A DNA stretch of 64,000 bases from Chloroflexota bacterium (GTDB lineage: Bacteria > Chloroflexota > Anaerolineae > Anaerolineales > Villigracilaceae), in contig JACRLB010000015.1 of the NCBI GenBank assembly GCA_016235445.1, forward strand, positions 310,001 to 374,000. The letters are read 5' to 3'. The notes under the pieces were generated by a model, which ran no database searches, was not told the DNA's origin, and saw only the letters and a list, made by a program, of their open reading frames with translations. Positions 18,188 through 55,866 of the stretch are shown piece by piece. Each line of letters opens with the position of its first letter. The first letter of the stretch is position 1. The translations under genes were made by a program, and so were the position numbers.

Positions 18188-18632
18188 GTCAGGGTGGGAG
18201 AATGCCTATTAGACAGGAGCAGGCTTCTCGGTCGGGGAAGAGGCGGGGGTGAATCGCTTTTGTCTGATGGGGCGCAAATCATCTTGTCAGCCTGTCAATA
18301 AAATATCCAGAAGCGGGGAATGGGATATTCGATTTTCAATACCTGCACTTCCCATACAGCTTGTATATACCCGTAACTTTTTGCGTCAATTTGCGACTAC
18401 TAGAAAACGAGGGAAGTGTTTTACGTTTTCCCATTTATTGGTAGAGCTGTGCCCAATTTTGCGGGCTGTGTATGAGGCTGTGTTTCATAGGCAGTTTCAT
18501 GCTTCGAATGTAGAGATGCGGCTGATGGCCGTATGTCTTCATATTGTTGATCGCTGTAGATTTATCGTCCGCTGGGAAGTGTGCGGCGGCCATCTTGTAT
18601 TCGCGGAAGATTGCGAGGGTAAGCATTACACC

Positions 18633-21413
18633 ATGAACTCACAACCGAATCGATTTATGAAAGCTTTCCACAAGATAAGAACCCTGCGTTTTGGATGCCT
18701 GACGAGCACGGGACTTGTTTCAGGCCTGATCGCGGTATTTTTTATCGTGGGTTCTGCGCTGGCAAGCGGCGGAATGATGTACAGCCCTGGCGAGCTTAAT
18801 TCAATCTCTGGCGATGTGATTGGCGGGGTCTCTTCCCATGCGGAAATCGAAGGGGATTGTAAATCCTGTCATGTTGCGCCATGGGAAACGGAAACGATGG
18901 ATGACCGCTGTTCGACATGTCATACGGAGATTGCGGCAGAGTTGGAAGATGCCGCTTCGGTTCACGGTGGGATGATGCAGGAGGACCCAAATGCAAATTG
19001 CCGTGATTGTCACCCTGAGCATCATGGAGCCAGCGCCCTGCTGACTGTATTTAAAGGATGGATGTTCCCGCACGAGCTGATGGCTTACTCATTAAAGGGA
19101 CATCAGTTCAAAGCCGAGAATGAGCCGTTTGTATGCGCGGACTGCCACGGTGAGGATGTCACTACATTCGATTCTGTGACCTGTACCAAGTGCCATGTTC
19201 AGGAAGACATGACCTTTATGGTGGATCACATGGTCACGTTTGGCGAAACCTGCCTCGATTGCCATGACGGGATCGACAGGTTTGGGGATGATTTTAACCA
19301 TGATGAATTTCCTTTTAAGTTGAACGGCAAACATGCGGCTGTCACCTGCCAGCAGTGCCACCTTAACTCCCATACTCCCGCGGACTTGCGGGCAACCAGT
19401 CAGGATTGTTTTTCATGCCATCAAGGGGATGACCTGCACAACGGGAAGTTGGGGACCGATTGCGCTTCGTGTCATTCTGCTGACGGCTGGAAGCCTTCGA
19501 GCTTTGACCACAATCAATCTGATTTCAGACTGGATGGTTCCCACATCCATGTGGAATGCGAGATGTGCCATGCGAACAGGGAGTATAAGGGCACGCCAAA
19601 AGATTGCTATTCCTGCCATGAACAGGACGATGAGCATCTTGGGCAGTTGGGGACTGATTGCGCCGCGTGCCATGTTACGAGTGATTGGAAGAATATTACT
19701 TTTAATCACGATACGGCGGCCTTTAAATTGACTGGTTTGCACAATCAGGTTAAGTGTACGTCCTGTCACGTCAATGGAGTTTTCAAAGGCACGCCGATGG
19801 ACTGCTATTCCTGCCACGCGAAAGTGGATGCTCATAACGGTCAATTCGGCAGAAATTGCAGTCAATGCCATACTACCAGCGGATGGCAGAATGTATCCTT
19901 TGACCATAACGGCACTGGGTTTCCATTAACAGGCCTGCATGTGGATGTGGCTTGTAAAAACTGTCATGTAGACGGCGTTTTCAAGAATACCCCAAAGAAT
20001 TGCCATGCCTGCCATGCAGGGGATGACGCGCACAATGGAGAATTTGGCCAGGACTGTGCCACTTGTCATAACCCCAGCGGTTGGAAGAATGTATCCTTCG
20101 ACCATGGCAAAACTGCATTCCCGCTGGTGGCTTCGCACACAAGCGTTGCCTGCGCCTCGTGCCATGTGGGCGGAGTCTACAAGGGCACGCCGACGGATTG
20201 TTATTCCTGCCATGCCGCGAAGGATAAACATAATGGACAATTTGGAACAGACTGCGGGTTGTGCCACAAACCGACGAAGTGGGATGACGTGGTTTTCGAT
20301 CACAGCGTTACCTCATTCCCGTTGACTGGCACGCACACAAACGTTGCCTGCGCCTCCTGCCATGTGGGCGGAGTCTACAAGGGCACGCCAAAGGATTGTT
20401 ATTCCTGCCATGCCGCAGATGATGATCACAATGGACAATTTGGCACCAACTGCGGGTCATGCCATAAGCCAACGAGATGGCGGGATGTCTTTTTCGATCA
20501 CAGCGTCACTTCCTTCCCGCTGACCGATTCGCATACAACCGTTGCCTGCCTCGCCTGCCATGTGAATGGAAACTTCCAGGGTACGCCGACAGATTGCTAT
20601 TCCTGCCATGCCACAGACGATAACCATAACGGTCAGTTTGGAACCAACTGCGGGTCATGCCATAGACCGACGAGATGGCAGGATGTCTTTTTCGATCACA
20701 GCGTCACTTCATTCCCGTTGACGGATTCGCACACAAACGTTGCCTGCGCCTCCTGCCATGTGGGCGGAGTCTATCAGGGCACGCCGACAGATTGCTATTC
20801 CTGCCATGCCACAGACGATAACCATAACGGTCAGTTTGGAACCAACTGCGGGTCATGTCATAGACCGACGAGATGGCAGGATGTCTTTTTCGATCACAGC
20901 GTCACTTCCTTCCCGCTGGTTGGCAGGCACACCAGGGCGGCCTGTTCCGCCTGCCATGTGAATGGAAATTTCAACGGCACGCCAACGGATTGTTATTCCT
21001 GTCACGCGGCGGATGATGATCACAACGGGCAATACGGGACGAATTGCGGATCATGCCACTCCCCAACAGGGTGGAGCAACGTGACATTCGACCACGACCT
21101 GACAGCCTTCCCTTTGACAGGCCAGCATACGAGATTGGTTTGTACCCAATGTCATGTAGCAGGTCAATACACGGGACTTTCCACCACCTGCGCTTCGTGC
21201 CACAACGAGCCGACATTCCACTCAGGCGCATTTGCGACAGCCTGCGACCAATGTCATACCACCGCTCGCTGGATGCCCGCTCCATTTGCCGCACACCCGA
21301 GGTACAACGGCGAGAGAATGCTTAACCATCACGGCGCCACATGCAGAACGTGTCACGTGATCACAGTGAATGACTTTACCTGCCTTGACTGCCACGACAG
21401 CAACAACCCGTAG
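18633..21413 (+). CDS. Giant secreted multihaem c-type cytochrome (about 38 haem motifs)
   Basis: A 926-residue protein with about 38 CXXCH motifs by my count. The start at 18633 was chosen because it gives a signal peptide: a basic stretch (KAFHKIRTLRFG), a hydrophobic core to about residue 44, then ASGG. After an irregular N-terminal part, most of the protein is a tandem array of about 66-residue units. Each has three haem motifs (of the CASCH, CYSCH and CGSCH type) plus conserved VFFDHSVTSFPLTGTHT histidines that can serve as distal ligands, in the manner of cytochrome c3/c7 proteins. It should act outside the cytoplasmic membrane in long-range electron transfer. No cytochrome-maturation genes are in the window. 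A small CGCAAGAT hairpin follows. Confidence 0.9.
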   Translation: MNSQPNRFMKAFHKIRTLRFGCLTSTGLVSGLIAVFFIVGSALASGGMMYSPGELNSISGDVIGGVSSHAEIEGDCKSCHVAPWETETMDDRCSTCHTEIAAELEDAASVHGGMMQEDPNANCRDCHPEHHGASALLTVFKGWMFPHELMAYSLKGHQFKAENEPFVCADCHGEDVTTFDSVTCTKCHVQEDMTFMVDHMVTFGETCLDCHDGIDRFGDDFNHDEFPFKLNGKHAAVTCQQCHLNSHTPADLRATSQDCFSCHQGDDLHNGKLGTDCASCHSADGWKPSSFDHNQSDFRLDGSHIHVECEMCHANREYKGTPKDCYSCHEQDDEHLGQLGTDCAACHVTSDWKNITFNHDTAAFKLTGLHNQVKCTSCHVNGVFKGTPMDCYSCHAKVDAHNGQFGRNCSQCHTTSGWQNVSFDHNGTGFPLTGLHVDVACKNCHVDGVFKNTPKNCHACHAGDDAHNGEFGQDCATCHNPSGWKNVSFDHGKTAFPLVASHTSVACASCHVGGVYKGTPTDCYSCHAAKDKHNGQFGTDCGLCHKPTKWDDVVFDHSVTSFPLTGTHTNVACASCHVGGVYKGTPKDCYSCHAADDDHNGQFGTNCGSCHKPTRWRDVFFDHSVTSFPLTDSHTTVACLACHVNGNFQGTPTDCYSCHATDDNHNGQFGTNCGSCHRPTRWQDVFFDHSVTSFPLTDSHTNVACASCHVGGVYQGTPTDCYSCHATDDNHNGQFGTNCGSCHRPTRWQDVFFDHSVTSFPLVGRHTRAACSACHVNGNFNGTPTDCYSCHAADDDHNGQYGTNCGSCHSPTGWSNVTFDHDLTAFPLTGQHTRLVCTQCHVAGQYTGLSTTCASCHNEPTFHSGAFATACDQCHTTARWMPAPFAAHPRYNGERMLNHHGATCRTCHVITVNDFTCLDCHDSNNP
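20290..21080 (+). repeat. 198-bp tandem repeats inside the cytochrome gene
   Basis: The segment around GATGTCTTTTTCGATCACAG recurs at 20484, 20682 and 20880, exactly 198 bp apart, with near-identical DNA between; flanking units are more diverged. This shows recent unit duplication in the gene and a risk of mis-assembly of unit number. Confidence 0.85.
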
Positions 21414-22388: not shown

Positions 22389-23768
22389 ATGTCCACCCTC
22401 CTCATCAAGAACGCACACATCCTCACCATGGACGATCATCAGCGGGAGATTCCCGAGGGTGGTCTTTTTATTCGAGACGGAGTTATCGAAGCCGTAGATC
22501 AAATTGCCAATTTGACCTACACCGCCGATGAAGTGCTCGATCTCAAGGGGCACATCGTTCTGCCTGGCCTCGTCAACACGCATCATCATTTTTATCAAAC
22601 CCTCACGCGCGCCGTACCTGCCGCGCAGGATGCCAATCTCTTCAACTGGCTCAAGACCCTCTATCCCATTTGGGCGCGCCTGACCCCCGAAGATATTTTT
22701 ATTTCGACTCAGACCGCACTGGCAGAACTGGCCCTTTCGGGATGTACCACCGCAGCGGACCATCTCTACCTTTTTCCAAACGGCTCAAAACTGGACGATG
22801 AAATTGATGCGGCTTCCGAGATCGGTTTACGCCTGCAAGCATCGCGCGGCTCAATGAGCCTCGGTGAATCCAAAGGCGGCCTGCCACCCGATAGTGTCGT
22901 GGACAGCGAAGAGAACATCCTCAAAGATTCACAACGCCTCATCGAAAAATATCACGACGCCAAAACAGGCGCGATGACCCAGATCGTGCTCGCGCCCTGC
23001 TCACCATTCAGCGTCACATCGGATTTGATGAAACAGTCCGCGAAGCTGGCGCGTGAATATGGCGTGCATCTGCATACGCATCTCGCAGAAACCGAAGACG
23101 AAGAACAATTCTGTATGCAGATGTTCGGTCATCGTCCCGTGGGATACATGCAGGCAGTGGACTGGGTGGGGGATGACGTCTGGTTCGCACATGCGGTGTG
23201 GGTCAATGACGAAGAGATTCAAGTCTTTGCCAAACATAACTGCGGCGTGGCGCATTGTCCCACCTCGAACATGCGATTGGCGTCAGGGATTGCTCCTGTC
23301 AAAGAATACCGGGCGGCAGGCGTAAACGTAGGATTAGGCGTGGACGGTTCTGCATCCAACGATGGCTCGCATCTGCTGGCTGAAGTCCGCAATGCCATGC
23401 TCGTGTCCCGAGTCAAAGAGGGACTTACGGGTTATTCCCTTTCAAACGACCCCAACCGAAAATTGATGACCGCCCGTGAAGCCTTGCATCTCGGCACACG
23501 CGGCGGCGCGGCAGTGCTTGGGCGCAGAGACATCGGCTCTCTCGAAGCGGGCAAATGCGCCGACTTCTTCGCGGTCGACTTGAACAAGCTCGGTTATGCA
23601 GGTATGCACGATCCCGTCTCTGCCATTGTGTTCGGACAGTCTATGAATGTGGATTACACCGTGGTCAATGGAAAGTTCGTTGTGAAGGAAGGTCAATTGG
23701 TGACAGTGGATCAGGGCAATTTGATCGAGAAGCATAACAAGGCCTCGAAGAGATTGTTGGCAGGATAA
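22389..23768 (+). CDS. 8-oxoguanine deaminase (amidohydrolase)
   Basis: A 459-residue cytoplasmic amidohydrolase that hydrolytically deaminates 8-oxoguanine to urate; the same subgroup includes related purine and triazine deaminases. Metal-binding and catalytic blocks are complete: NTHHHFYQTLTR near residues 64-75, LHTHLAETEDEE, the His in WFAHAVW, CPTSNMRLASG and GVDGSASNDGS. The match to the 8-oxoguanine deaminase branch runs through the substrate-side segments VPAAQDANLFNWLKTLYPIW and RGSMSLGESKGGLPPDS. It is the first gene after the promoter and operator at 22300-22346 and is four bases from the next gene. Guanine as an additional substrate is possible. Confidence 0.87.
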   Translation: MSTLLIKNAHILTMDDHQREIPEGGLFIRDGVIEAVDQIANLTYTADEVLDLKGHIVLPGLVNTHHHFYQTLTRAVPAAQDANLFNWLKTLYPIWARLTPEDIFISTQTALAELALSGCTTAADHLYLFPNGSKLDDEIDAASEIGLRLQASRGSMSLGESKGGLPPDSVVDSEENILKDSQRLIEKYHDAKTGAMTQIVLAPCSPFSVTSDLMKQSAKLAREYGVHLHTHLAETEDEEQFCMQMFGHRPVGYMQAVDWVGDDVWFAHAVWVNDEEIQVFAKHNCGVAHCPTSNMRLASGIAPVKEYRAAGVNVGLGVDGSASNDGSHLLAEVRNAMLVSRVKEGLTGYSLSNDPNRKLMTAREALHLGTRGGAAVLGRRDIGSLEAGKCADFFAVDLNKLGYAGMHDPVSAIVFGQSMNVDYTVVNGKFVVKEGQLVTVDQGNLIEKHNKASKRLLAG

Positions 23769-23772
23769 TGGA

Positions 23773-24336
23773 ATGAAAAACAAACGCGCCTGGATTCATG
23801 TTCTTCCTGAGGAAGAAGCGGAGGGCGAATTGAAAGCCTTGTACGAACAGGAATTCGATTCCGAAAAACAGGGCACGGATAATATCCTCGCCGTGCATTC
23901 GTTGAATCCGCCCACCTTGCGCGCCCATGCGGATTTGTATCATACGGTGATGCACGCGAAGAGTCCGCTTGGCCGTTCGGAGCGGGAGATGGTGGCGGTT
24001 GTGGTCAGCGCCATCAACAAATGTCATTATTGAGTTGCACATCATTCGCGCGGTCTGCTGCGATTTGTGAAGAAGCCTGAATTGGTGGAAGCCTTGAAGA
24101 ATGATTACCGCGCCGCAGAGTTGACCCCGCGTCAGCGCGCCCTGCTGGATTATGCCGATAAACTCACTCGTGAGCCGTGGGCAATGGTTGAAGCGGATTT
24201 GAGTCCATTGCGCGAGGCAGGTTTGGACGATCGCGGCATTCTGGACCTGAATCAGGCGGTTGCCTATTTTGCCTATGTCAACCGTGTTGCGGATGGCTTG
24301 GGCGTTGTTATCGACAAATACGCGCTTGAAAAGTAA
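23773..24336 (+). CDS. AhpD-like peroxidase-related selenoprotein (CXXU), read through TGA
   Basis: One continuous 187-residue frame if the TGA at 24031-24033 is read as selenocysteine 87. The TGA falls exactly where the second Cys of the AhpD/carboxymuconolactone-decarboxylase redox motif belongs: C84-H-Y-U87-V-A-H-H. Protein homology continues past it (LLRFVKKPELVEALKNDYRA, then PRQRALLDYADKLTREP and QAVAYFAYVNRVADGLG) to a TAA at 24334. A SECIS-like hairpin follows the TGA. AhpD-like selenoproteins are a known class. The enzyme would be a thiol/selenol peroxidase or disulfide reductase in the cytoplasm. It sits tightly between two purine deaminase genes. The alternatives are two separate peptides or a mutated pseudogene; both are less likely. 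Confidence 0.88.
24034..24069 (+). promoter_or_regulatory. Bacterial SECIS-like hairpin
   Basis: 24040-24051 (CATCATTCGCGC) pairs with 24057-24069 (GCTGCGATTTGTG), with one bulged T and two mismatches, closing an apical loop GGTCT at 24052-24056. The loop begins 18 bases after the TGA, the same spacing and GGTCTG apex as in E. coli fdhF. This is the recognition structure for SelB. Confidence 0.85.
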
Positions 24337-24349
24337 TTTGGAGAATTCT

Positions 24350-26140
24350 ATGACATCTTCCACAAAACTCACCCGCACCCTCGTGGATGTAGCCATGGGA
24401 CGCGCCCATGCCGACCTTGTCATTCGCGGCGGCAGATGGGTCAGCGTGCAATCAGGTGAGATCATTGCCAATACGGAAGTAGCCATTGTGGCGGGTCACA
24501 TTGCATTTGTTGGGCACAATGCCGAACATACGATTGGCAAAAAGACAAAGGTTATCGAAGCCAAAGGTAAATACCTTGTGCCTGGCTTACTCGATGCCCA
24601 CATGCACGTTGAATCAGGCATGGTCACAGTCACGGAATTTGTGCGGGCGGTGGCAGTGCGCGGTACGACAGGCATGTTCATCGACCCGCATGAGATGGCA
24701 AACATCTTCGGCCTCAAAGGCGTGAAGTTGATGGTGGACGAAGCGCAAAAACAACCCATCCATGTTTGGGTGCAGATGCCCTCGTGCGTTCCGTCTGCGC
24801 CTGGGTTTGAGACGCCAGGTTCTTCCATCGGCCCGAAGGAAGTGATCGAAGCCATGAAGTGGAAGGGCATCATTGGCCTCGGTGAGATGATGAATTTCCC
24901 CGGCGTATTCATGAGCGACAAGAAGATGCTGGATGAAATGTCCGCGACCCATGCGGCGGGGAAGGTGATTGGCGGGCATTACGCCTCGCCGGATTTGGGA
25001 TTGCCGTTTCACGGCTATGTGGCGGGCGGCGCGGAAGACGACCACGAAGGCACGCGCCTCAATGATGCGATTGCAAGAGTGCGGCAGGGCATGAAAGCCA
25101 TGCTGAGATACGGCTCGGCCTGGTTCGATGTGGCCGCGCAGGTGAAAGCGATTACCGAAAAGAAAATGGACTCGCGCCGCTTCATCCTTTGCACGGATGA
25201 TTCTCACGCGCAGACTCTCACCACCGAAGGCCACATGGACCGCGTCCTGCGCCACGCCATCAGCGAAGGGTTGAATCCGATGACGGCGATTCAGATGATG
25301 ACGATCAACACCGCCGAGCATTTTGGCCTCACCAAAGAGATCGGCATGATTGCTCCAGGCCGCTGGGCGGATGTGGTTCTTGCGGATGACCTGATGAATT
25401 TCAAAGCTGACATGGTCATTGCCAGGGGACAGGTGATTACCGAGAAAGGCGAACTGCTGGTTAAACTGCCTGCGGTGAAATATCCCAAGTGGGTGACGAA
25501 GTCTGTGCATTTGAAGAGAACACTCATAGCGCAGGATTTTGTCCTTCGGACGAGAGCAGTGGACGGCGTAGAGGTCGAGGCGCATGTCATCGGTGTGATC
25601 GAGAATCAGGCGCCGACCAGGCATCTTAAGATGAAGGTCAAGGGTGAAGGGGGCGAAGTCAAAGCGGATATTAAACGGGACCTTGCAAAGATCGCGCTGG
25701 TGGAACGTCACCGCGCGACGGGCAAGGTGACGGTTGGTTTGATCAGTGGGTTTGGTTTTACGCGAAAGTGCGCGATTGGTTCGACGGTGGCGCATGACAG
25801 CCATCACATGATCGTGGTCGGCACGGATGATGAAAGTATGGCGATGGCCGCGAATGAATTGGCGAAGTGTGGCGGCGGTCAGATCGTGGTGTTGGACGGC
25901 AAGGTGATTGGCTTGGTGGATTTGCAAATCGCGGGGCTGATGTCGAACGAGCGCGCGGATGTTGTGGCGAAGAAAACTGCGACGGTGCTGGATGGTTTCA
26001 AGATGTGCGGCAGTGAATTGAACAACCCGAACATGCAGTTGAGTTTGATGGCGCTGGTGGTGATCCCTGAATTAAGAATTTCAGATAAGGGACTCGTGGA
26101 CGTGACGCAATTCGATTTCGTGCCTGTGTTGGAAGATTGA
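24350..26140 (+). CDS. ade: Adenine deaminase
   Basis: A 596-residue adenine deaminase (adenine to hypoxanthine and ammonia) of the amidohydrolase superfamily. Seen: PGLLDAHMHVESGM, IDPHEMANIFG, GLGEMMNFPGVF, GHYASPDLGLPFHGYVAGGAEDDHEGT (split here as blocks), and LCTDDSHAQTL, followed by the C-terminal domain with FGFTRKCAIGSTVAHDSHHM. Length and motif order match the two-domain Ade family. The start at 24350 follows TTTGGAGAATT; an upstream in-frame ATG would run into the selenoprotein gene. It feeds hypoxanthine to the xdh enzyme encoded downstream. Confidence 0.95.
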   Translation: MTSSTKLTRTLVDVAMGRAHADLVIRGGRWVSVQSGEIIANTEVAIVAGHIAFVGHNAEHTIGKKTKVIEAKGKYLVPGLLDAHMHVESGMVTVTEFVRAVAVRGTTGMFIDPHEMANIFGLKGVKLMVDEAQKQPIHVWVQMPSCVPSAPGFETPGSSIGPKEVIEAMKWKGIIGLGEMMNFPGVFMSDKKMLDEMSATHAAGKVIGGHYASPDLGLPFHGYVAGGAEDDHEGTRLNDAIARVRQGMKAMLRYGSAWFDVAAQVKAITEKKMDSRRFILCTDDSHAQTLTTEGHMDRVLRHAISEGLNPMTAIQMMTINTAEHFGLTKEIGMIAPGRWADVVLADDLMNFKADMVIARGQVITEKGELLVKLPAVKYPKWVTKSVHLKRTLIAQDFVLRTRAVDGVEVEAHVIGVIENQAPTRHLKMKVKGEGGEVKADIKRDLAKIALVERHRATGKVTVGLISGFGFTRKCAIGSTVAHDSHHMIVVGTDDESMAMAANELAKCGGGQIVVLDGKVIGLVDLQIAGLMSNERADVVAKKTATVLDGFKMCGSELNNPNMQLSLMALVVIPELRISDKGLVDVTQFDFVPVLED

Positions 26141-27036: not shown

Positions 27037-28239
27037 ATGACAGACAAAATACAAGAAATACAAAAGCGCGTGCAAGCCTCGCGTGAAGACATCATTCAAT
27101 TCATGCTCGAGATCGTGGAAATCCCATCCATGGACTCACAACTCAAGGATGTGGGGGAGCGCATCGCCAGGGAAATGAACAAACTCGGCTTCGATGAAGT
27201 CCGCTTTGACAAGATGGGCAACATCATGGGCCGCATCGGCAATGGCAAGCGCGTCATTGTCTACGATTCTCATGTCGATACCGTCGGCATTGGCGATCCG
27301 CACGAATGGCAATGGGACCCGTTCAAAGGCAAGATTGAAGACGGCATTTTATACGCCCGCGGCGCATGTGACGAAAAAGGATCCACCCCTGGCATGATTT
27401 ATGGCTTAGCCATGGCGCGTGATCTTGGTCTGCTCGACGGCTGGACAGCGTATTACTTTGGCAATATGGAAGAATGGTGCGATGGCATCGCCCCCAACAC
27501 CTTTGTCGAAGTGGACCCGAAGATCAAGCCTGACTTTGTCGTCATCGGCGAGCCGACCAAAATGCTCGTCTATCGCGGCCACAAGGGACGCCTTGAAATG
27601 AAAGTTACCGCAAAGGGCAAGTCTGCTCACGCGGCCAGCAATCACCTCGGCGATAACGCCATCTATAAATTATTGCCCGTCATTGCAGGCATCCGCGACC
27701 TTGAACCCAAACTCGGCGACCATGAATTTTTAGGTCACGGCAAGATCACGGTTTCAGACATGCACGTCAAAACCCCGTCCATCAACGCCGTGCCCGACGA
27801 AGCCATCATCTTCATCGACCGCCGCATGACCTTCGGTGAAACCAAAGAAATGGTCAAAAAACAGGTCGAAGATCTCATCCCCGCTGAATTCAAAGACACC
27901 GTCAAACTCGAAGAACTTTTTTATGATGAACCGTCCTACACGGGCTTCGTTTTTCCGGTGGATAAATACTTCCCAGCCTGGGCATTGGATGAAGATCACG
28001 CGCTCGTTCAAGCGGGACAGTTGGCACGAAAAACTATCGGCCTCAACGAAGCCCCAAGCAGTAAATGGAACTTCTCCACGAACGGCATTTACTGGGCTGG
28101 CAAAGCGGGCATCCCCTCCATCGGCTTCGGCCCCGGCGACGAAGAGACCGCCCACACCGTCCGCGATTCTGTCTCGCTCGAAGACATGGTCAAAGCCACC
28201 GAGTTCTACGCGATACTACCGAGCCTGATAGCGGGCTAG
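27037..28239 (+). CDS. ygeY: YgeY-family M20 hydrolase linked to selenium/purine metabolism
   Basis: A 400-residue M20 metallopeptidase-like hydrolase. Metal-binding and catalytic blocks are present: YDSHVDTVG near residues 75-83, GACDEKGST, NMEEWCDG (Glu pair) and ETAHTVRDSV near the C-terminus. This branch is annotated YgeY, a selenium metabolism-linked hydrolase found with xdh, ygeW and carbamate kinase, and the same set occurs in clusters reported to degrade urate or purines anaerobically. It may cleave an amide in a ring-opened purine product; the substrate is not certain. A 160-bp spacer with a GCCACATC/GATGTGGC stem precedes it. Confidence 0.88.
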   Translation: MTDKIQEIQKRVQASREDIIQFMLEIVEIPSMDSQLKDVGERIAREMNKLGFDEVRFDKMGNIMGRIGNGKRVIVYDSHVDTVGIGDPHEWQWDPFKGKIEDGILYARGACDEKGSTPGMIYGLAMARDLGLLDGWTAYYFGNMEEWCDGIAPNTFVEVDPKIKPDFVVIGEPTKMLVYRGHKGRLEMKVTAKGKSAHAASNHLGDNAIYKLLPVIAGIRDLEPKLGDHEFLGHGKITVSDMHVKTPSINAVPDEAIIFIDRRMTFGETKEMVKKQVEDLIPAEFKDTVKLEELFYDEPSYTGFVFPVDKYFPAWALDEDHALVQAGQLARKTIGLNEAPSSKWNFSTNGIYWAGKAGIPSIGFGPGDEETAHTVRDSVSLEDMVKATEFYAILPSLIAG

Positions 28240-28317: not shown

Positions 28318-29298
28318 ATGCAAACCAATTTTCGCGGTCGTGACTTTATCGGCGACCTCGACTTCTCGAAAGAGGAAGTCGAAACAGTTTTAGACGTAGC
28401 CTGGGATTTAAAACGCAAACGCGCATTAGGTGAACCCCATGCCTTACTGCGCGACAAGACCCTCGCCATGTTGTTCTTCTTCACCTCCACCCGCACCCGT
28501 GGATCGTTCGAATCGGGCATGGCTCAGCTTGGCGGGCACGCCGCTTTCATCGACAGCGAAACTACCCAAATCTCACACGGCGACACCGCCAAGGAGATCG
28601 GCGAAATCTTTGGCCGCTATTTCGACGGCATCGCCATCCGTCAATGTGACTGGCAATTCGGCAACCAGTACATCAACGAAGTTGCCAAAGCCAGCCGCGT
28701 GCCGATCCTCAACATGCAATGCGATGTCTATCATCCCTTCCAATGCCTCGCAGATTTGATGACCATTCAGGAAAAGAAAGGCCGCGACCTCAAACGCAAA
28801 AAAGTGGTCGTCTCATGGGCCTATGCCGCTTCCTACAGCAAGCCGATTTCCGTTCCCCAATCTCTGATTCTGCAAATGACCCGCTTCGGCTGTGACGTGG
28901 TGTTGGCGCATCCACCGGAGTTCAAGCTCATGCCTGAGATCATGCAACAGGCAAAGGACAACGCCAAAAAATACGGCGTCGGCTTTGACGTCACCGATAA
29001 CATGGACGAAGCCTTCAAGGATGCGGACGTGGTCTACCCCAAAAGCTGGGGTCCCATGCTCACCACCACTGGCAAGGATGAAGGCAAAGCCCTCATCGAA
29101 AAATATAAATCCTGGATCACCGACGAACGCCGCATGAAACTGACCAGGGAAGATTCAATTTACATGCACTGCCTCCCCGCAGACCGCGGACTCGAAGTCA
29201 CCGATGGCGTGATCGATGGTCCGCACTCGGTTGTGTACGACGAAGCCGAAAACCGCCTGCACGCGCAGAAGGCCGTCATGGCGTTGACGATGTCTTGA
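28318..29298 (+). CDS. ygeW: YgeW-type knotted carbamoyltransferase
   Basis: A 326-residue carbamoyltransferase with the carbamoyl-phosphate loop STRTRGSFE (about residues 58-66) and the signature HCLPADRGLEVTDGVIDGP near the C-terminus that marks YgeW rather than ornithine or aspartate transcarbamoylase. In a catabolic setting it would phosphorolyse a ureido compound to carbamoyl phosphate, which carbamate kinase (29948-30904) turns into ATP. It follows ygeY by 78 bp; AAGGAG precedes the start. Confidence 0.9.
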   Translation: MQTNFRGRDFIGDLDFSKEEVETVLDVAWDLKRKRALGEPHALLRDKTLAMLFFFTSTRTRGSFESGMAQLGGHAAFIDSETTQISHGDTAKEIGEIFGRYFDGIAIRQCDWQFGNQYINEVAKASRVPILNMQCDVYHPFQCLADLMTIQEKKGRDLKRKKVVVSWAYAASYSKPISVPQSLILQMTRFGCDVVLAHPPEFKLMPEIMQQAKDNAKKYGVGFDVTDNMDEAFKDADVVYPKSWGPMLTTTGKDEGKALIEKYKSWITDERRMKLTREDSIYMHCLPADRGLEVTDGVIDGPHSVVYDEAENRLHAQKAVMALTMS

Positions 29299-29342: not shown

Positions 29343-29840
29343 TTGAGCGAAAAGAAGCCATTGTATGAATCACCAGGCGAGAAAGGTAAACGTGGATTTG
29401 AAGATCTGGAGTGTTATCAACTTGCTCTTCAGGTGATGGCAAAGATACATGCCTTTTCCAAAACACTACCTCCTGATGAAAAATTTGACCTGTACGCCCA
29501 AATACGCCGTTCTGCCAAAGGCATCACTGGAAATCTTGGCGAAGGATATGGACGGTATCATTATCTTGATAGTTTACGGTTTTATTCAATTGCCCGCGGC
29601 GAACTGAATGAAACCCTTGCCCGTCTGATTGACGCGAAAGTGTTGGATTACATCAACCCAACAGAGTTTGAACTGTTGTATAAGCTCATCCGCCAAACAG
29701 AGCAGGCATTAAACGGTTTCATGTCCTACGTCCGCCGCCAACGCACTGGCTCACAGGAATATGGCGATAAGTCAGTTCATGAAGATCAGGCAAGTTATGA
29801 CATTTTGCAAGGCGCAGAAGTTGACGATAGGCAAGACTAA
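29343..29840 (+). CDS. Four-helix-bundle protein (S23 / intervening-sequence type)
   Basis: A 165-residue helical protein with the family core FEDLECYQLALQVMAKIHAF and YAQIRRSAKGITGNLGEGYG, ending in an acidic tail. Genes of this kind were first seen inside 23S rRNA intervening sequences and are scattered as accessory genes; function is unknown. It starts with TTG at 29343 after AGGAGGTAG. It separates ygeW from carbamate kinase and is bracketed by inverted GTAGACAGGTAAAC-type simple repeats, which suggests insertion into the purine operon. Confidence 0.85.
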   Translation: MSEKKPLYESPGEKGKRGFEDLECYQLALQVMAKIHAFSKTLPPDEKFDLYAQIRRSAKGITGNLGEGYGRYHYLDSLRFYSIARGELNETLARLIDAKVLDYINPTEFELLYKLIRQTEQALNGFMSYVRRQRTGSQEYGDKSVHEDQASYDILQGAEVDDRQD

Positions 29841-39075: not shown

Positions 39076-40005
39076 ATGCTTGACCGACGCCTGCTTGCTC
39101 GTATTGATGAGAAGAAATCCAAATTAGACGCTTTGCGCCCGCTTCCTTCGGCGGCTGTGAACCGTCTCAAAGAACAGTTCACGGCGGAGTGGATTTACAA
39201 CTCCAACGCGATTGAAGGCAGTACGTTGACCTTGCGTGAGACACAACTGATCCTCGAAACAGGCCTGACAATCGGCGGAAAATCCTTGCGTGAGCATTTC
39301 GAAGTAACCAATCATAAAGACGCCATTGATTATGTCGAATCGCTTGCGCAACAGGGCGAACTCATTACACCCTTTCATGTGCGACAGATACACAAACTGG
39401 TCTTATCCCAGATTGACGATGAAAATGCAGGCCAATACCGCAAGACTGAAGTTCGTATCGCAGGCGCAAAGCATATCCCACCCGAAGCATGGGAAACCCC
39501 TCAGCGCATGACAGAATGGGGTGACTGGCTGAAGAATGCAGAGAAACATATCCATTCTGTTGAACTTGCCGCGCAGGCGCATCATCGCCTGGTGGCAATC
39601 CATCCGTTCATAGACGGCAATGGACGCACTGCTCGATTGGTGATGAATCTAATCTTATTCAGGCAAGGCTATCCACCCGCTGTGATTTTGCGAGTTAACC
39701 GAAAACAATATTATCAAGTCCTCATGCAAGCCGACGCAGGGAAGAACGATCCGCTGGTCAATTTCGTTGGACGGGCTGTGGATCATAGCCTCACACTATA
39801 TTTGGAAGCGTGTGTTTCAAAATCCATGCAGTTATCCAGCAACGAGCAATGGATTCCCCTCGCTCAGGCCGCCGCAGGAACAACCTACACTCAGGAGTAT
39901 CTTTCTCTGCTAGCCCGTCAGGGCCGCATTGAAGCCATCAAACGCGGACGGAATTGGTTCACAACTCGTAAAGCTGTAAAAGAATATCAGGATTCTATAA
40001 AATGA
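39076..40005 (+). CDS. Fic-family protein with C-terminal helix-turn-helix
   Basis: A 309-residue Fic protein. The catalytic motif HPFIDGNGRTAR has H176, and an N-terminal inhibitory motif SNAIEG (43-48) marks the self-inhibited class II. Fic enzymes transfer AMP or other nucleotide parts to target proteins. The last 60 residues (IPLAQAAAGTTYTQEYLSLL, then GRIEAIKRGRNWFT) look like an excisionase/MerR-type helix-turn-helix. It sits between the two xdh genes, with its own operator-like repeats, as an inserted accessory gene; its target is unknown. Confidence 0.9.
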   Translation: MLDRRLLARIDEKKSKLDALRPLPSAAVNRLKEQFTAEWIYNSNAIEGSTLTLRETQLILETGLTIGGKSLREHFEVTNHKDAIDYVESLAQQGELITPFHVRQIHKLVLSQIDDENAGQYRKTEVRIAGAKHIPPEAWETPQRMTEWGDWLKNAEKHIHSVELAAQAHHRLVAIHPFIDGNGRTARLVMNLILFRQGYPPAVILRVNRKQYYQVLMQADAGKNDPLVNFVGRAVDHSLTLYLEACVSKSMQLSSNEQWIPLAQAAAGTTYTQEYLSLLARQGRIEAIKRGRNWFTTRKAVKEYQDSIK

Positions 40006-40063
40006 AAATGGTAATTTCGCCCGCCAGTTTCTCCTTCCGTGGTTCAATATTTTGAGGAAAATT

Positions 40064-42901
40064 ATGAATAACAAAATCTCTCTTACAGTTAATGGCAACA
40101 GACATACCCTCGAACCAGTCGCGGGTGAAACTTTATCCACCCTGCTCCGCGAGAGGCTTCGCTTAACAGGCACCAAGATTGGATGCGAAGAAGCCGAGTG
40201 CGGCGCGTGTACCGTCCTTGTGGATGGCGAGCCGATGATGTCCTGTGTCTATCCCGCCGAGCGGGCCGATGGGAAAACGATTGTGACGATTGAAGGACTG
40301 GCGGGGAAATTTACCGCGAAGGATTTAAAGAAAGAAGAAAGAGGAAAGAATCTTGGCGAGCTTCGCAGTCTTCACCCTCTCCAGGAAGCCTTCGTGGAGC
40401 ATGGCGCAGTCCAGTGTGGGTTCTGCATCCCCGGGCAGATTATGACGGCGTATGCCTTGCTTGAGCGGAATCCCAACCCGACCCAAGATGATATTCGTTT
40501 TGCGTTGAAGGATACCCTTTGCCGCTGTGCAGGCTATCAGACGATTGAGAATTCCATTCTCGCCGCCGCAGAATCATTGCGGACAGGTGAATCCGTCAGG
40601 AAGCCAAACATCCCTGATTCGATTCACGAACATAATTCAGTCGGGCATACGCACACGCGCCACGATGGAGTGGATAAGGTCACAGGCACGGCCATCTATA
40701 CCGATGATCTTGTCTTCGACGGCATGTTGTATGCCAAAGCCAAACGCGCCATGATCCCGCACGGCTTTTTGACGAAGCTGGATATTTCCAAAGCCAAAGC
40801 CCTTCCAGGCGTTGTGTCTGTTTTAACCGCCGAAGATGTAAAAGGCGAAAAGAATCACGGCCTCGTCATTTATGATTGGCCTGTGCTGGTGGGTGTTGGC
40901 GAACGCGTGCGTTATGTGGGTGATGCGCTTGCTGTCATAGCGGCGGAAACCCAACAGATCGCCGAACAGGCGTCGGCTTTGATTGAGGCGGAATTTGATC
41001 TTCAGCCTGTCATCACAAATCCAGTCATGGCTCGTGAAGAGGGCGTTCCGCAAATCCATGAAAAAGGGAATTTGCTCAAGCACATCAAGGTCCGCAAAGG
41101 TGATATGGATGCAGGCTTCGCTGAGTCTGATGTAATTCTTGAACACACCTTCCACACGCCGACCACTGACCATGCTTTTATCGAACCCGAATGCAGTATT
41201 GCCGTGCCAACTCCCGATGGGCGAATGGAAATTTATGTCGGCTCGCAAATTCCGTATCAGGATAAAACGCAGGTGGCGCGCGCGATGGGTTGGGATGAGT
41301 CGCGTGTGCGCATCATCGGGCAGTTGATGGGTGGCGGCTTCGGCGGCAAGGAAGACATCATGGGACAGATCCATGTTGCCATGCTTGCCGATGCCACACA
41401 GCGGCCTGTGAAATTATTGTTTGATCGTCATGAAAGTTTGCTTGTGCATCCGAAACGCCACGCCACACAAATCCGCGTGAAGATTGGCGCAAAGAAAGAT
41501 GGCCGACTCGTTGCGGCTGAAACAGAGTTGTATGGCGATACGGGCGCGTATGCTTCGCTCGGCGAAAAAGTGATGACCCGCGCCACCACGCACTCGGCTG
41601 GCCCGTACGACATCCCCAACGTGCGCGCCGATTGCTACGCCATGTACACCAACAATCCGCCCGCGGGCGCGTTCCGCGGTTTCGGCGTTACGCAATCTGC
41701 GTTCGCGGTTGAGTCGATGATGGATATGCTCGCCGAAAAATTAAACATCGAACCCGTCGAATTGCGCCGCATGAATTCATTGCATGTTGGAAGCATCACC
41801 AACACGGGACAGGAATTGAAAGAGTCTGTTGGTTTGATGGAATGTATTGATAAAGTGGATGCGGAGATGCGGAAAACAAACCCGCATCCTTTCACGCCGA
41901 TCACTGATCCTGCTCAACCGAATTTGGTTCGAGCCTGGGGTTTTGCCGCGGCTTACAAGAACACAGGCCTTGGCGGCGGCGCGCCCGACATCTCTGGCGC
42001 AGACGTTGAACTTTATGAAGACGGTACTTTCCAGGTCCGCAGTTCATCAGCAGAAATGGGACAGGGACTTGTCACCGTCATGCGAACCATTGTTGCGGAA
42101 GAAATGTCTGTGCCGCCTTCGCAGGTGCGCGTCCTCGTCATGGATACAGACCTGACCCCGAACGGCGGCCCCACCACAGCCTCGCGCCAGACCTTCGTCA
42201 CAGGCAATGCGTCTCGTTACGCCGCCAAGACTTTGCGTGATGAAATCACCGCCGTGATGGCTGAAAAATATGATGTGCGCCCCGAACAGATTCGTTTCGA
42301 GAACGGCATTGTCCACGTCAACGGGCATTCGATGAGCTACTCAGATATTTACAAGGAAATGAATGCTCTCGGAAAACAACCGAAAGTCCGCTACACCTAC
42401 GAAGCGCCGAAGACTCAACCTCTCGGCTCAGGCGGTGACATGCATTTCGCATTTTCCTTCGGCGTGCAAGCCGCCGAAGTGGAAGTCAACAAGCTGACGG
42501 GCGAAGTGCGCGTGCTGAAAGTCATCTCTGCCAATGATGTGGGCATGGCGGTCAATCCGCTTGGTTTGCAGGGACAGATCGAAGGCGGCGTGATGATGGG
42601 ACTCGGCAATGCCCTCACCGAAGAATTCATCATGGAGGATGGCAACGTGGTCACTGACCATCTTGCGCGCTATCGCGTCCCTGGCATTATGCTCACGCCA
42701 GAGATTACATCCATTATTGTGGAACATCCCATATCCACGGGGCCGTACGGCGCGAAAGGAGTGGGGGAGATTTGCAGTATCCCCACCACGCCTGCCATCA
42801 CGAACGCAATTTACAACGCGGTGGGTGTGCGGATTTTCAAGACGCCTGTGGACCAGGAGATGATTGCGAGGGAGATTTGGGAGAGGGAAGAGAAAAAGTG
42901 A
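40064..42901 (+). CDS. xdhA: Xanthine-dehydrogenase-type hydroxylase, fused iron-sulfur and molybdopterin subunits
   Basis: A 945-residue fusion. Residues 1-165 carry two [2Fe-2S] clusters: C41, C46, C49 and C61, then C118, C121, C153 and C155 in GAVQCGFC and DTLCRC. The remainder is the molybdopterin part with GGGFGGKE, AFRGFGVTQ and GAKGVGEICSIPTTPAI, the last holding the catalytic Glu. It would oxidise hypoxanthine, xanthine or a related purine with the FAD subunit. Residues about 83-102 include KKEERGK, encoded by a purine repeat identical to the hairpin arm at 6876-6896. ATG 40064 follows GAGGAAA. The 3' end is duplicated after the downstream toxin-antitoxin pair. Confidence 0.92.
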   Translation: MNNKISLTVNGNRHTLEPVAGETLSTLLRERLRLTGTKIGCEEAECGACTVLVDGEPMMSCVYPAERADGKTIVTIEGLAGKFTAKDLKKEERGKNLGELRSLHPLQEAFVEHGAVQCGFCIPGQIMTAYALLERNPNPTQDDIRFALKDTLCRCAGYQTIENSILAAAESLRTGESVRKPNIPDSIHEHNSVGHTHTRHDGVDKVTGTAIYTDDLVFDGMLYAKAKRAMIPHGFLTKLDISKAKALPGVVSVLTAEDVKGEKNHGLVIYDWPVLVGVGERVRYVGDALAVIAAETQQIAEQASALIEAEFDLQPVITNPVMAREEGVPQIHEKGNLLKHIKVRKGDMDAGFAESDVILEHTFHTPTTDHAFIEPECSIAVPTPDGRMEIYVGSQIPYQDKTQVARAMGWDESRVRIIGQLMGGGFGGKEDIMGQIHVAMLADATQRPVKLLFDRHESLLVHPKRHATQIRVKIGAKKDGRLVAAETELYGDTGAYASLGEKVMTRATTHSAGPYDIPNVRADCYAMYTNNPPAGAFRGFGVTQSAFAVESMMDMLAEKLNIEPVELRRMNSLHVGSITNTGQELKESVGLMECIDKVDAEMRKTNPHPFTPITDPAQPNLVRAWGFAAAYKNTGLGGGAPDISGADVELYEDGTFQVRSSSAEMGQGLVTVMRTIVAEEMSVPPSQVRVLVMDTDLTPNGGPTTASRQTFVTGNASRYAAKTLRDEITAVMAEKYDVRPEQIRFENGIVHVNGHSMSYSDIYKEMNALGKQPKVRYTYEAPKTQPLGSGGDMHFAFSFGVQAAEVEVNKLTGEVRVLKVISANDVGMAVNPLGLQGQIEGGVMMGLGNALTEEFIMEDGNVVTDHLARYRVPGIMLTPEITSIIVEHPISTGPYGAKGVGEICSIPTTPAITNAIYNAVGVRIFKTPVDQEMIAREIWEREEKK
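42812..42889 (+). repeat. 78-bp direct repeat, copy 1 (in xdh 3' end)
   Basis: Identical over 78 bp to 43649-43726. It codes YNAVGVRIFKTPVDQEMIAR and EIWERE of the xdh protein, and the frame then continues with EKK and a stop. Confidence 0.95.
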
Positions 42902-49371: not shown

Positions 49372-49430
49372 ATCGTCCCGCAGGTTGATTGAAATGGAAA
49401 TACCTGGGCAGGTGCAGCCTGCGGGACGAT
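49372..49430 (+). promoter_or_regulatory. ATCGTCCCGCAGG hairpin in the fba leader
   Basis: A perfect 13-bp stem (49372-49384 with 49418-49430) around a 33-base loop, ending 26 bp before the fba start. It may be a terminator for read-through from upstream, a leader structure, or a repeat; a related stem is at 21648-21684. Confidence 0.5.
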
Positions 49431-49455
49431 GATTATCAAACTCAGGAGAGTCTCC

Positions 49456-50418
49456 ATGATTATCACCACTGCCGAATTATTCAAAGCCGCCTATGGAAAA
49501 TTTGCCGTGGGCGCGTATAACATCAACAACATGGAGCAGGCCCTCGGCCTGTTTCAGGGGCACATCACTGCGCAGGCTCCTTTCATTATTCAAATATCAA
49601 AAGGCGCGCGCAAGTACGCGGGGGTAAAAATGCTCGAAGCCATTATCCGCGCCTGTGACGAAATCTACCCCGAAGCCATTTATGCCGTCCACCTCGATCA
49701 CGGCGACGAAACAACCTGCTATGAATGTATCGACTCGGGCTTTTATTCCTCCGTGATGATCGATGCCTCACACGAATCCTTCGAGCAAAATGCCGCCATT
49801 ACGCGCCGTGTTGTGGAACGCGCACACGCCAAAGGATTAAGCGTCGAAGCGGAAATGGGCATGTTGGGCGGCGTGGAGGAACACGTCAGCGTGGATGAAA
49901 AACATGCCATGCTCACCGACCCCGATGAAGCCAAAGCATTCGTAGACCAAAGCGGGTGCGACAGCCTCGCCGTTGCCATCGGCACAAGCCACGGCGCGTA
50001 TAAATTCAGCGGAAGCCAGGGCCTGCATTTCGACCGCATCGCTGAAATTCAAAAACGACTGCCCGGCTTCCCGCTGGTCATGCACGGTTCGAGTTCGGTG
50101 CCAAAAGCCGAAGTGGAGAAAATCAATTCGGCGGGCGGCCAGCTCGACCCGTCGGCAAGAGGCGTGAATGAATCGGAGTTCGCAAAAGCCGTCCCGTTGG
50201 GAGTCACAAAAGTCAATATCGATACCGATGGCCGCCTGGTCTGGACTCGCGTTCACCGCGAATATCTGCGTGACAACCCCAAAGATTTCGATTTCCGAAA
50301 ACCGGGGGCGGCGTACATCCAGGCCTATGCCGATTTCATCGTGCAAAAATCAATCGCCCTGCTTTCCGCGGGCACACTCGCGGAAGTGCGCACTGCCATC
50401 GCCGCGAGCGCCGCATGA
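49456..50418 (+). CDS. fba: Class II fructose-bisphosphate aldolase
   Basis: A 320-residue zinc aldolase. Seen: VGAYNINNMEQ, AVHLDHGDETTCYECIDSGF (catalytic Asp and Zn His), EAEMGMLGGVEEHVS, GTSHGAYKF, LVMHGSSSVP and VNIDTDGRL. In a Calvin cluster it makes fructose-1,6- and sedoheptulose-1,7-bisphosphate. ATG 49456 follows AGGAGAG at 49444-49450; an earlier in-frame ATG lies in the hairpin leader and is less likely. The stop overlaps glpX by four bases. Confidence 0.94.
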   Translation: MIITTAELFKAAYGKFAVGAYNINNMEQALGLFQGHITAQAPFIIQISKGARKYAGVKMLEAIIRACDEIYPEAIYAVHLDHGDETTCYECIDSGFYSSVMIDASHESFEQNAAITRRVVERAHAKGLSVEAEMGMLGGVEEHVSVDEKHAMLTDPDEAKAFVDQSGCDSLAVAIGTSHGAYKFSGSQGLHFDRIAEIQKRLPGFPLVMHGSSSVPKAEVEKINSAGGQLDPSARGVNESEFAKAVPLGVTKVNIDTDGRLVWTRVHREYLRDNPKDFDFRKPGAAYIQAYADFIVQKSIALLSAGTLAEVRTAIAASAA

Positions 50419-51437
50419 AAGCCGCGGCTGATTCACAAAACCCCATGAGTGAAACCCCCAACCGCAACCTCGCCCTCGAATTGGTGCGCGTCACCGAAGC
50501 CGCCGCGCTTGCCGCAGGTCATTGGATGGGCCGCGGCCAAAAGGAAGCTGGCGACGGCGCGGCGGTGGAAGCCATGCGGTTGATCCTCGCCACGATCGAC
50601 ATGGACGGCGTCGTCGTCATCGGCGAAGGCGCAAAAGATGAAGCGCCCATGCTCTTCGACGGCGAAAAAATTGGCAACGGCTCAGGCCCCGCCGTGGATT
50701 TGGCCGTCGACCCCATCGAGGGAACAGCCCTGCTTGCCTACGGACGGCCCGATGCGATTTCCGTCGTAGCCATTGCCCCGCAAGGGATGATGTGGTCGCC
50801 GGGGCCGGCGTATTACATGAACAAACTCGTTGTTGGAAGTGAGGCCCGCGCCGCGCTTCATCCGGGACTTTTAGCTGGTCCCGTTTCTGAGACATTATCC
50901 GCCATTGCGGCATCTCTCCGCAAACCCCTCGGCGACCTGACCATCTTCGTGCTCGACAAGCCCCGCCACCAAAAACTCATCGCAGATATCCGTGAAGCCG
51001 GCGCGCGCGTCTTGCTCCGCACCGATGGAGACGTGGCCGGCGCGCTCATGGCCGCCATGCCCAACTCCGGCGTGGATGTGCTCATGGGCATCGGTGGCAC
51101 TCCCGAAGGTGTGATTGCCGCCTGCGCGATCCGCGCCTTGGGCGGCGCCATGCTCGGCCAGCTCGCGCCGCAAAAAGAGGATGAGCGCAAAGTCGTTGAA
51201 GAAGCCGGCTTAGACCTTGGCCGTGTGCTGACCGAACTCGACCTGGTGCAAAGCGATGATGTCTTCTTCGCCGCCACCGGCATCACCGATGGCGTGCTCA
51301 TGCCCGGCGTGCATTACTACGGCGGCGGCGCAAGCACCGTCTCCATCGTCATGCGCGGAAAGACGGGAACCGTGCGAAGAATCCACGCCGATCACCGACT
51401 CGATAAACTGCGTGAGATCAGCGCGGTGGCCTATTAG
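50415..51437 (+). CDS. glpX: Class II fructose-1,6-/sedoheptulose-1,7-bisphosphatase, intact copy
   Basis: A 340-residue GlpX-type phosphatase. Active-site positions are kept: D47 in GDGAAVEAMR, E71 and D75 in GEGAKDEAPML, VDPIEGT, and the Glu in GGTPEGV. It should hydrolyse FBP and perhaps SBP in the Calvin cycle. The start overlaps fba (ATGA); a second ATG at 50445 is possible. A second, altered glpX is at 55867-56889. Confidence 0.93.
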   Translation: MKAAADSQNPMSETPNRNLALELVRVTEAAALAAGHWMGRGQKEAGDGAAVEAMRLILATIDMDGVVVIGEGAKDEAPMLFDGEKIGNGSGPAVDLAVDPIEGTALLAYGRPDAISVVAIAPQGMMWSPGPAYYMNKLVVGSEARAALHPGLLAGPVSETLSAIAASLRKPLGDLTIFVLDKPRHQKLIADIREAGARVLLRTDGDVAGALMAAMPNSGVDVLMGIGGTPEGVIAACAIRALGGAMLGQLAPQKEDERKVVEEAGLDLGRVLTELDLVQSDDVFFAATGITDGVLMPGVHYYGGGASTVSIVMRGKTGTVRRIHADHRLDKLREISAVAY

Positions 51438-51491
51438 TCGCCAGTCTCTCATCCTGGTCAACCAGACTTTAAAACCATAAAGGAGAAACCC

Positions 51492-52946
51492 ATGTCCAAA
51501 GCGAAATCAGATGCAAAAGATGAAAAAGCGTTGTTCGATGCGGGGGTAAAGGAATACAGCGCAGCCGGTCGTTATTATTACGATATTGGCTATAAACCAA
51601 CTGAAACCCAGGTGTTGGCGGCTTTTCGAATCACCCCGCAGGAGGGCGTTTCGTTTGAAGAAGCGGCCGCGGCTGTGGCGGCTGAATCCTCCTTCTCCAC
51701 ATGGACAACGGTCTGGTCCGATTATTTGGTGGATGCCTCCCGCTATTCTGCGCGCACGTATGAGATGAAACCCGTCCCCGGTCACCCAGACCAGATGATG
51801 GCTTACATCGCCTATCCGCTGGACCTGTTCGAAGAAGGCTCGATGGGCAACTTGATGTCTTCGCTCGTGGGCAACGTATTCGGCTTCAAGCCTTTGCGCG
51901 CTCTGCGCCTCGAAGACCTTTACTTCCCGCCTGCACTGCTCAGCACATTCCAGGGACCTCCGCATGGCATTCAAGTGGAGCGCGACCGCATGGACAAATA
52001 TGGCCGTCCCCTGCTCGGCGCGACGATGAAACCGAAACTTGGTCTTTCTGCCAAGAACTATGGGCGCGTGGTGTACGAAGCCCTGCGCGGCGGACTGGAC
52101 TTTACCAAAGACGATGAGAATATCACCTCCCAGCCTTTCATGCGCTGGCGCGACCGCTGTGAGTTCGTGATGAGTGCCGTCAAGCAGGCCGAGGCCGAAA
52201 CCGGCGAACGCAAGGGGCACTACCTCAACGTCACCGCCGGCGACATGGAAGAAATGTACGCCCGTGCCGAACTGGCAAAGGAACTCGGTTCGCGCATTAT
52301 CATGGTGGACTATCTCATCGTTGGCTTTACCGCATTCACATCCCTTTCCAAGTGGTGCCGCCGAAATGGAATGTTGCTCCACGCCCATCGCGCCATGCAC
52401 TCGGTTCTGGACCGCCAGCCGAATCACGGCATCAACTGGCGCGTGCTTGCCAAGATGTGCCGCATCGTCGGCGCGGATCACCTGCACAACGGCACGGTCG
52501 TGGGCAAACTCGAAGGCGACCGCGCCTCGACCATCGGTATCAACGAAATGATGCGCGAGACCCGCGTTGCCACGGTGGAACAATGCCCCGGCCATCACTT
52601 CGACCAGCCCTGGCTTTCCATGCCCGGCATGTTCCCAGTCGCTTCGGGGGGTATCCACGTTTGGCATATGCCGGAGCTTGTATCCATTTTTGGCGATGAA
52701 GTGATTCTGCAATTCGGAGGCGGGACGGTTGGTCATCCGTGGGGAAGCGCGGCGGGAGCCACTGCCAACCGCGTTGCGCTGGAAGCGGTTGTGCAGGCGC
52801 GCAACGAAGGCCGCAACCTGCTCGCCGAGGGCACAGACATTCTCAAATCTGCCGCAAAGCATAGCGGTGAACTGCGCGCCGCCATGGAAACCTGGAAGGA
52901 TATTACCTTCGACTACGAATCCGTGGACGCGCTCGAAAAGCCGTAG
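51492..52946 (+). CDS. rbcL: RuBisCO large subunit, Form I type
   Basis: A 484-residue large subunit that carboxylates ribulose-1,5-bisphosphate. Catalytic residues are intact: K180 and K182 in [14 protein letters not shown], carbamylated K206 with D208 and E209 in [11 protein letters not shown]299 in HAHRAMH, loop-6 K339 in [10 protein letters not shown], and [23 protein letters not shown] precedes the ATG. A small-subunit gene follows, separated by 93 bp that includes a weak CGCAAGAT/ACCTTGTG hairpin (52953-52970). This indicates Form I with RbcS rather than the small-subunit-free Form I-prime known from Chloroflexota; the exact clade needs a tree. Confidence 0.95.
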
Positions 52947-53039
52947 CCATACCGCAAGATTTACCTTGTGAATTGACTATTTTCATTCCAAGCCAAACGC
53001 AAAGTGAACTTTGCTGTACAAAACCGAGGAGCAATTGAA

Positions 53040-53339
53040 ATGAAAACTGAAACCTTTTCCTACCTTCCCACTTTTTCCCGTGAACAGATCGAAAAGCAGG
53101 TTCAATACTTTCTGAAAAACAACTGGGTGGTCGGCATCGAATATACCTCCCAGCCGAATCCATCCCTTGCATTTTGGGATTGGTGGAAACTGCCGCTGTT
53201 CAGCATGAAAGCTGTCAGTGAGATCATGGCAGAGATCGAAGCCTGCAAGGCGAATCACGCGAACTGCTTCATCCGCATTACCAGCTACGATAACGCCCGT
53301 CAAACCCAGGTGATGAGTTTCGTTGTACACAGACCTTAA
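53040..53339 (+). CDS. rbcS: RuBisCO small subunit
   Basis: A 99-residue small subunit: ETFSYLPTFSREQIEKQVQY, GIEYTSQPNPSLAFWDWWKL, then PLF and an ending SYDNARQTQVMSFVVHRP. It is compact, with a short loop between the first two strands and no C-terminal hairpin extension, as in proteobacterial/cyanobacterial IA/IB proteins. GIEYT and MSFVVHRP are closer to IC/ID proteins. It should cap the large-subunit octamer to L8S8. ATG 53040 has GAGGAG 10 bases upstream; a longer frame from 53004 is unlikely. Confidence 0.93.
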   Translation: MKTETFSYLPTFSREQIEKQVQYFLKNNWVVGIEYTSQPNPSLAFWDWWKLPLFSMKAVSEIMAEIEACKANHANCFIRITSYDNARQTQVMSFVVHRP

Positions 53340-54592: not shown

Positions 54593-54625
54593 CGGTATCA
54601 ATTTTCAGCGAAGAAAAAAACCTTG

Positions 54626-54723: not shown

Positions 54724-54801
54724 CAGTGAAGAAAAATTTAATTTGGGTGAATCAGTTGTCAGCGCGGCAGGATGCGAGAAGTCCATCGAAAAGGATTAAG
54801 C

Positions 54802-55827: not shown

Positions 55828-55866
55828 GTCAAATTGCCAATTTGACTTACAAAGAAGGAGCAACAC

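Follow-up and report, generated by a model that had tools for sequence, protein, structure and literature searches.

AhpD-like proteins with selenocysteine in a CxxU motif have been recorded several times. The 2005 Sargasso Sea survey gives 27 CXXU-bearing AhpD-like proteins, alongside CXXU families of CMD-domain proteins and of 'hypothetical protein 1' (PMC1088965), the GOS survey distinguishes AhpD-like 1 and AhpD-like 2 (PMC2398784), and a 2026 review carries the entry 'AhpD-like protein, TIGR01926, CxxU' (PMC13188914). For PA0269 of P. aeruginosa and AhpD of M. tuberculosis, a further study describes a proton relay running through Glu, Cys, Tyr/His, Cys and His (PMC3141380). Loss of DR1765 in D. 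radiodurans is reported to raise H2O2 sensitivity, with the CxxC cysteines mattering for complementation, and the same account gives a lipoamide-containing protein as the reductant of M. tuberculosis AhpD (PMC8945050). Our search of the open-licence literature on Chloroflexi/Anaerolineae selenoproteins, and on AhpD, selenoproteins and purines together, listed no paper on the gene described here or its setting.

This gene lies in the window, the whole 64,000-nucleotide stretch of DNA that was analysed, and its central features are as follows.

23773-24336, forward strand: very probable AhpD-like selenoprotein gene, ATG start and TAA end included, 187 aa with Sec at residue 87
24022-24024, forward strand: first Cys codon of the CxxU motif, residue 84
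24031-24033, forward strand: in-frame TGA, very probably decoded as selenocysteine, at the second CxxU position; 58 of the 61 loci read have TGA at this column

The frame opens with the ATG at 23773, contains this sole in-frame TGA and closes with the TAA at 24334-24336; with the TGA taken as Sec, the 187-residue product contains INKC84-HY-U87-VAHH. The initial annotation had placed the single TGA at the second cysteine of the AhpD CxxC motif, with homology continuing in frame beyond it, and had expected ordinary gene calling to fragment the gene. The frame reading bears out the first point, and the mechanical ORF list bears out the last, cutting the gene into pieces of 86 aa (23773-24033) and 89 aa (24067-24336). 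The joined protein, with the TGA entered as Cys for the profile search, scores 159.8 bits with the TIGR01926 model (peroxidase-related enzyme; cut-off 81.8), and because this match covers residues 6-179 the homology does indeed span the TGA. The Pfam CMD model is matched at 48.3 bits (cut-off 23).

Across 32 aligned sequences Glu72, Cys84, residue 87 (Sec or Cys) and His91 are invariant and Tyr86 is nearly so. The offsets of E72, C84, Y86, U87 and H91 (0/12/14/15/19) are those of residues 36/48/50/51/55 of PA0269. In AhpD chemistry one residue of the CxxC pair attacks and the other resolves. By this analogy Sec87 would attack peroxide or another electrophile and Cys84 would resolve it by forming a selenenylsulfide; Glu72, Tyr86 and His91 would make up the proton relay. 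The predicted structure is of moderate quality, with a mean pLDDT of 67 from three input sequences, values below 50 for residues 1-47 and better ones for approximately residues 61-170. Entries 3c1l, 2pfx, 2oyo and 6k40 are recovered as structural relatives both by fold and by sequence search, and from a reading of titles 6k40 appears to be DR1765 of D. radiodurans.

On sequence grounds we think it highly probable that the product is an AhpD-fold thiol/selenol peroxidase-type oxidoreductase, for which SelB and tRNA-Sec(UCA) would decode the UGA as selenocysteine with the help of a hairpin just downstream; that the selenoprotein is real is itself very probable. The TGA could otherwise be a nonsense mutation or a sequencing error in an ordinary CxxC AhpD gene, the locus then being a pseudogene or a misread one. 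Such a reading could draw on there being just one in-frame stop within a 187-codon gene and on the existence of a Cys form, found at the same column in three of the 61 loci read (L042, L045 and L077). These 61, which comprise the best-scoring matches with the window's own copy included (32 in one reading and 29 new), were drawn from an order-level search of 400 genomes, 44 of them with matches to the AhpD-like protein, and a class-level search of 396 genomes, 117 of them with matches. Aligning homologues at this C-x-[YF]-U column, as had been suggested, tells against the reading: the identical column is TGA in 57 loci besides the window's own, at identities down to 26-28%, and the frame, start and stop of the window gene are intact. 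With a column-conserved TGA and an intact frame, a pseudogene or sequencing error is close to refuted, and we give it almost no likelihood.

Many of the weaker matches in the order and class searches have no internal stop. At 100 bits or more, a TGA-bearing match is present in 67 of the 396 class genomes (a list compiled by hand), so TGA-bearing members are common in the class, and in three genomes all the matches at that level are free of stops. Stops scattered elsewhere in close homologues, which the initial annotation had named as a sign against the selenoprotein, are mostly missing: additional stops occur in the best match of just three of the 67 genomes (G539, G543 and G564). Among genomes with Cys or stop-free copies, G494, which carries the Cys copy L077 and is 87% complete, has no selA match, and G710 and G704, stop-free in their matches of at least 100 bits, have selA.

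The window's own genome (4.13 Mb, 55 contigs, 98.28% complete) was searched for the selenocysteine machinery, whose absence would have spoken against the initial annotation. SelA (558 bits, cut-off 267.9), SelB (339.5, cut-off 242.25), SelD (348.6, cut-off 125) and tRNA-Sec (70.3, cut-off 47; anticodon UCA by ARAGORN) are all found above their cut-offs, and this machinery, together with the TGA retained in relatives, supports the proposed AhpD-like CxxU selenoprotein. The genome's SelD gene (contig C24 of G000, 68775-69710; L050) has an in-frame TGA within a CAGU motif, and this selenophosphate synthetase is probably a selenoprotein itself. Decoding of the UGA as cysteine or another ordinary residue, through a code change or near-cognate read-through, might be suggested by the three loci with Cys at this column. 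TGA, however, terminates 10 of the 27 window genes checked and is thus an ordinary stop elsewhere, and the UCA-anticodon tRNA-Sec, SelA and SelB are present. Code reassignment was rejected on these grounds, and we regard ordinary-residue decoding as a whole as very unlikely.

The distribution of selA is consistent with selenocysteine decoding but is weak evidence for it. Of the 67 class genomes whose TGA-bearing match reaches 100 bits, 59 have it at E <= 1e-60 (p 0.07 by an approximate Fisher test with the whole class as reference). The other eight have no strong selA, which tells against the selenoprotein reading, and two of them (G709 and G633) are 90-91% complete. As selA scores above cut-off in 315 of the 396 class genomes (and in 320 of the 400 order genomes), its co-occurrence with the TGA-bearing matches tells little.

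Downstream of the UGA there is a candidate SECIS element.

24038-24069, forward strand: candidate bacterial SECIS hairpin, -10.1 kcal/mol, 10 bp; equalled at 31% of control positions in the gene
24052-24056, forward strand: apical loop GGUCU of the candidate SECIS, spacing 18 nt after the UGA

The published bSECIS model calls for a loop of 3-9 nt whose first two positions include a G, 4-16 bp of stem, a spacing of 16-37 nt and an MFE <= -7.5 (PMC13188914). The window hairpin lies within these limits in loop, spacing, stem and energy, yet the same-gene controls score equally as often as stated above. The 55-nt fold from the TGA onward is no better than shuffled sequence (z +1.1; 178 of 200 shuffles at least equal), the window falls at the 28th percentile for its gene in a weak energy test, and an Rfam scan of positions 23000-25000 at E up to 5 gave no match. 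In L047, the relative 82% identical to the window protein, the best hairpin reaches -6.3, short of the -7.5 threshold. Taken over all TGA loci, the model is satisfied in 44 of 58, whereas control positions within these genes satisfy it in 30-36% of cases; in three subgroups delimited by eye the passes are 27/36, 11/16 and 6/6, against controls of 33%, 36% and 30%, respectively. A stricter earlier test, which allowed no break in the stem, required the loop to begin 16-29 nt past the T of the TGA and has since been replaced by the published constraints, gave only 4 bp in the window and at least 5 bp in 31/42 and 14/16 loci of two subgroups, and it missed the hairpin in the subgroup with RNL instead of AGL.

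The position of the best SECIS-like hairpin varies with subgroup. Its spacing is mostly 16-19 in the window's subgroup; in the second (L025-L039, L043) it is 24 in 15 of 16 loci, with a loop that is mostly CGGGCT or CGTGNN, and in the third (L063-L065, L073, L074, L080) it is 28 in all six, with the loop AGUU. This subgroup-dependent distance from UGA to hairpin is relevant to the positional freedom of bacterial SECIS elements. The window element shares with the E. coli fdhF SECIS the sequence GGTCTGC (RNA GGUCUGC) at nucleotides 21-27 when the T of the TGA is counted as 0 in each gene, whereas the stem sequences are unlike and a U is predicted to bulge from the 3' side of the window's stem. 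At the fdhF-equivalent offset GGTCT occurs in 15 and GG in 28 of 42 loci outside subgroup A, a recurrence due in part to a conserved Gly codon.

The gene is tightly flanked by genes of purine metabolism, and the initial annotation, which named ygeY and ygeW among the neighbours, had seen here a coherent Sec-using purine pathway. The relevant local neighbours are the following.

22389-23768, forward strand: 8-oxoguanine deaminase gene, 4 nt upstream; NF006055 675.6 bits, cut-off 532
24350-26140, forward strand: adenine deaminase gene, 13 nt downstream; TIGR01178 498.6 bits, cut-off 472.5
27037-28239, forward strand: YgeY-family selenium-metabolism-linked hydrolase gene; TIGR03526 486.6 bits, cut-off 321.5
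28318-29298: carbamoyltransferase gene; TIGR03316 (YgeW) 208.7 bits, curated cut-off 500
40052-42901, forward strand: xanthine dehydrogenase-type Mo/Fe-S subunit gene; TIGR03311 769.7 bits, cut-off 830.45

The scores confirm ygeY. They do not confirm ygeW, the carbamoyltransferase falling far below the YgeW cut-off and slightly below that for ornithine carbamoyltransferase (268.2 against 280.85). The xanthine dehydrogenase likewise fails the cut-off of the model for Se-dependent enzymes, though TIGR03311 is its best-scoring model. Two genes within the cluster look unrelated by eye, one, for a four-helix-bundle protein, separating the carbamoyltransferase gene from that of carbamate kinase (29343-29840), and one, for a Fic-like protein, lying between the two xdh genes (39076-40005). 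Elsewhere in the window we noted, also by eye, a 1054-aa ORF with many CxxCH motifs, resembling a large multihaem cytochrome (18249-21413), and an apparent Calvin-cycle cluster (49429-57547) with aldolase, two FBPase-like, RuBisCO large-subunit-like, phosphoribulokinase-like and ribulose-phosphate epimerase genes.

YqeB and YqeC are maturation factors of Se-dependent Mo hydroxylases. Both are matched in the window's own genome (YqeB at E 2.2e-78; YqeC at 159.7 bits, cut-off 73.05). In locus L102 (6402-10188) yqeB, an unassigned ORF, a yqeC fused to a MocA-like domain and then the AhpD selenoprotein gene follow one another on the same strand, the last 70 nt past the yqeC/MocA-like gene (yqeB 326.4 bits, cut-off 220; yqeC 157, cut-off 73.05; MocA-like domain 153.3, below its 186.45). 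The selenoenzyme could be proposed to serve the purine cluster or labile-selenium Mo hydroxylase chemistry, for example by removing peroxide or handling selenium/sulfur species near xanthine dehydrogenase. The 4-nt and 13-nt spacings to the two deaminase genes, the arrangement in L102 and the YqeB and YqeC matches speak for such a role, and were it correct, the deaminase setting here and the yqeB/yqeC setting in L102 would be two independent signs linking both selenium traits. The proposal concerns the role of the protein and not its status as a selenoprotein, and its probability overlaps with that of the selenoprotein reading given above.

The evidence from relatives and congeners, like the subthreshold xanthine dehydrogenase, weighs against this role. 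None of 42 relatives' flanks, some of which end early at contig ends, has the purine cluster beside the gene (tblastn, E <= 1e-8, 12 proteins of the neighbourhood as queries, the ABC ATPase set aside); the search yielded only an ornithine carbamoyltransferase homologue in L086 and, at the Cys copy L112, homologues of XDH subunits. The nearest relative, L047, adjoins what look by eye like nuo and mrp genes, and L048 lies near photolyase-like and sigma-factor-like genes, again by eye. Nor does an AhpD-like gene occur within the 1.5 kb examined beside the 8-oxoguanine deaminase gene at any of 29 congener loci, the best from 57 congeners searched, whose deaminases are 88-94% identical to that of the window. 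At the 18 of these loci that reach adenine deaminase, 45-1293 nt separate the two deaminase genes, and in 10 of the 18 this gap holds, by eye, a hydrophobic ORF of about 110 aa. Among the 44 same-genus genomes in the order's 400 only the window's genome has a match above 50% identity. The stretch between the deaminase genes is therefore variable, and the purine setting seems to be a local matter.

The placement among purine genes thus looks peculiar to this one species, and the 8-oxoguanine deaminase is probably not part of the selenoprotein's function. Since the gene may simply have arrived, or been kept, between the two purine deaminase genes in this species, a shared run with them need not mean a purine role, and we consider a role in either purine or labile-selenium chemistry unlikely. 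As to the Sec-using purine pathway, then, the YgeY assignment and the YqeB and YqeC matches stand in its favour, and the cluster missing from relatives, the xanthine dehydrogenase score and the unconfirmed ygeW stand against it. Some neighbours of the AhpD selenoprotein gene do recur among 43 loci (window included): uracil phosphoribosyltransferase 9-144 nt upstream in four (L091, L092, L093 and L095), hypoxanthine phosphoribosyltransferase downstream, at no more than about 1.3 kb, in three (L087, L105 and L111), and a UvrA-like protein (by eye) in six. NCBIfam confirms four of the seven phosphoribosyltransferases, and these recurrent neighbours, the UvrA-like protein included, were judged to be housekeeping genes.

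Set against known systems, the gene is a clean, checkable selenoprotein candidate which ordinary gene calling divides in two. DR1765 (6k40), 3c1l, 2pfx and 2oyo resemble the window protein in fold and sequence and differ from it in being Cys-form proteins, with Cys where the window gene has TGA. The family NF041238 (AhpD-related CFYUT (seleno)protein) is similar in having, by its description, an AhpD domain and Sec at the second CxxU position, but the window protein scores 64 bits against its curated cut-off of 175, matching only positions 147-339 of the 357-position profile, and so lies outside it. Judged by its sequence, the protein is an AhpD-like member of TIGR01926, and since CxxU selenoproteins of this kind are on record, the catalogue of selenoprotein families is not enlarged by it. 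With the TIGR01926 AhpD-like CxxU selenoproteins of the survey and review (PMC1088965, PMC13188914), it shares the family model, matched above cut-off, and Sec as the second residue of CxxU; by model and motif the difference is nothing categorical, and it is the setting between purine deaminases that is particular to this genome.
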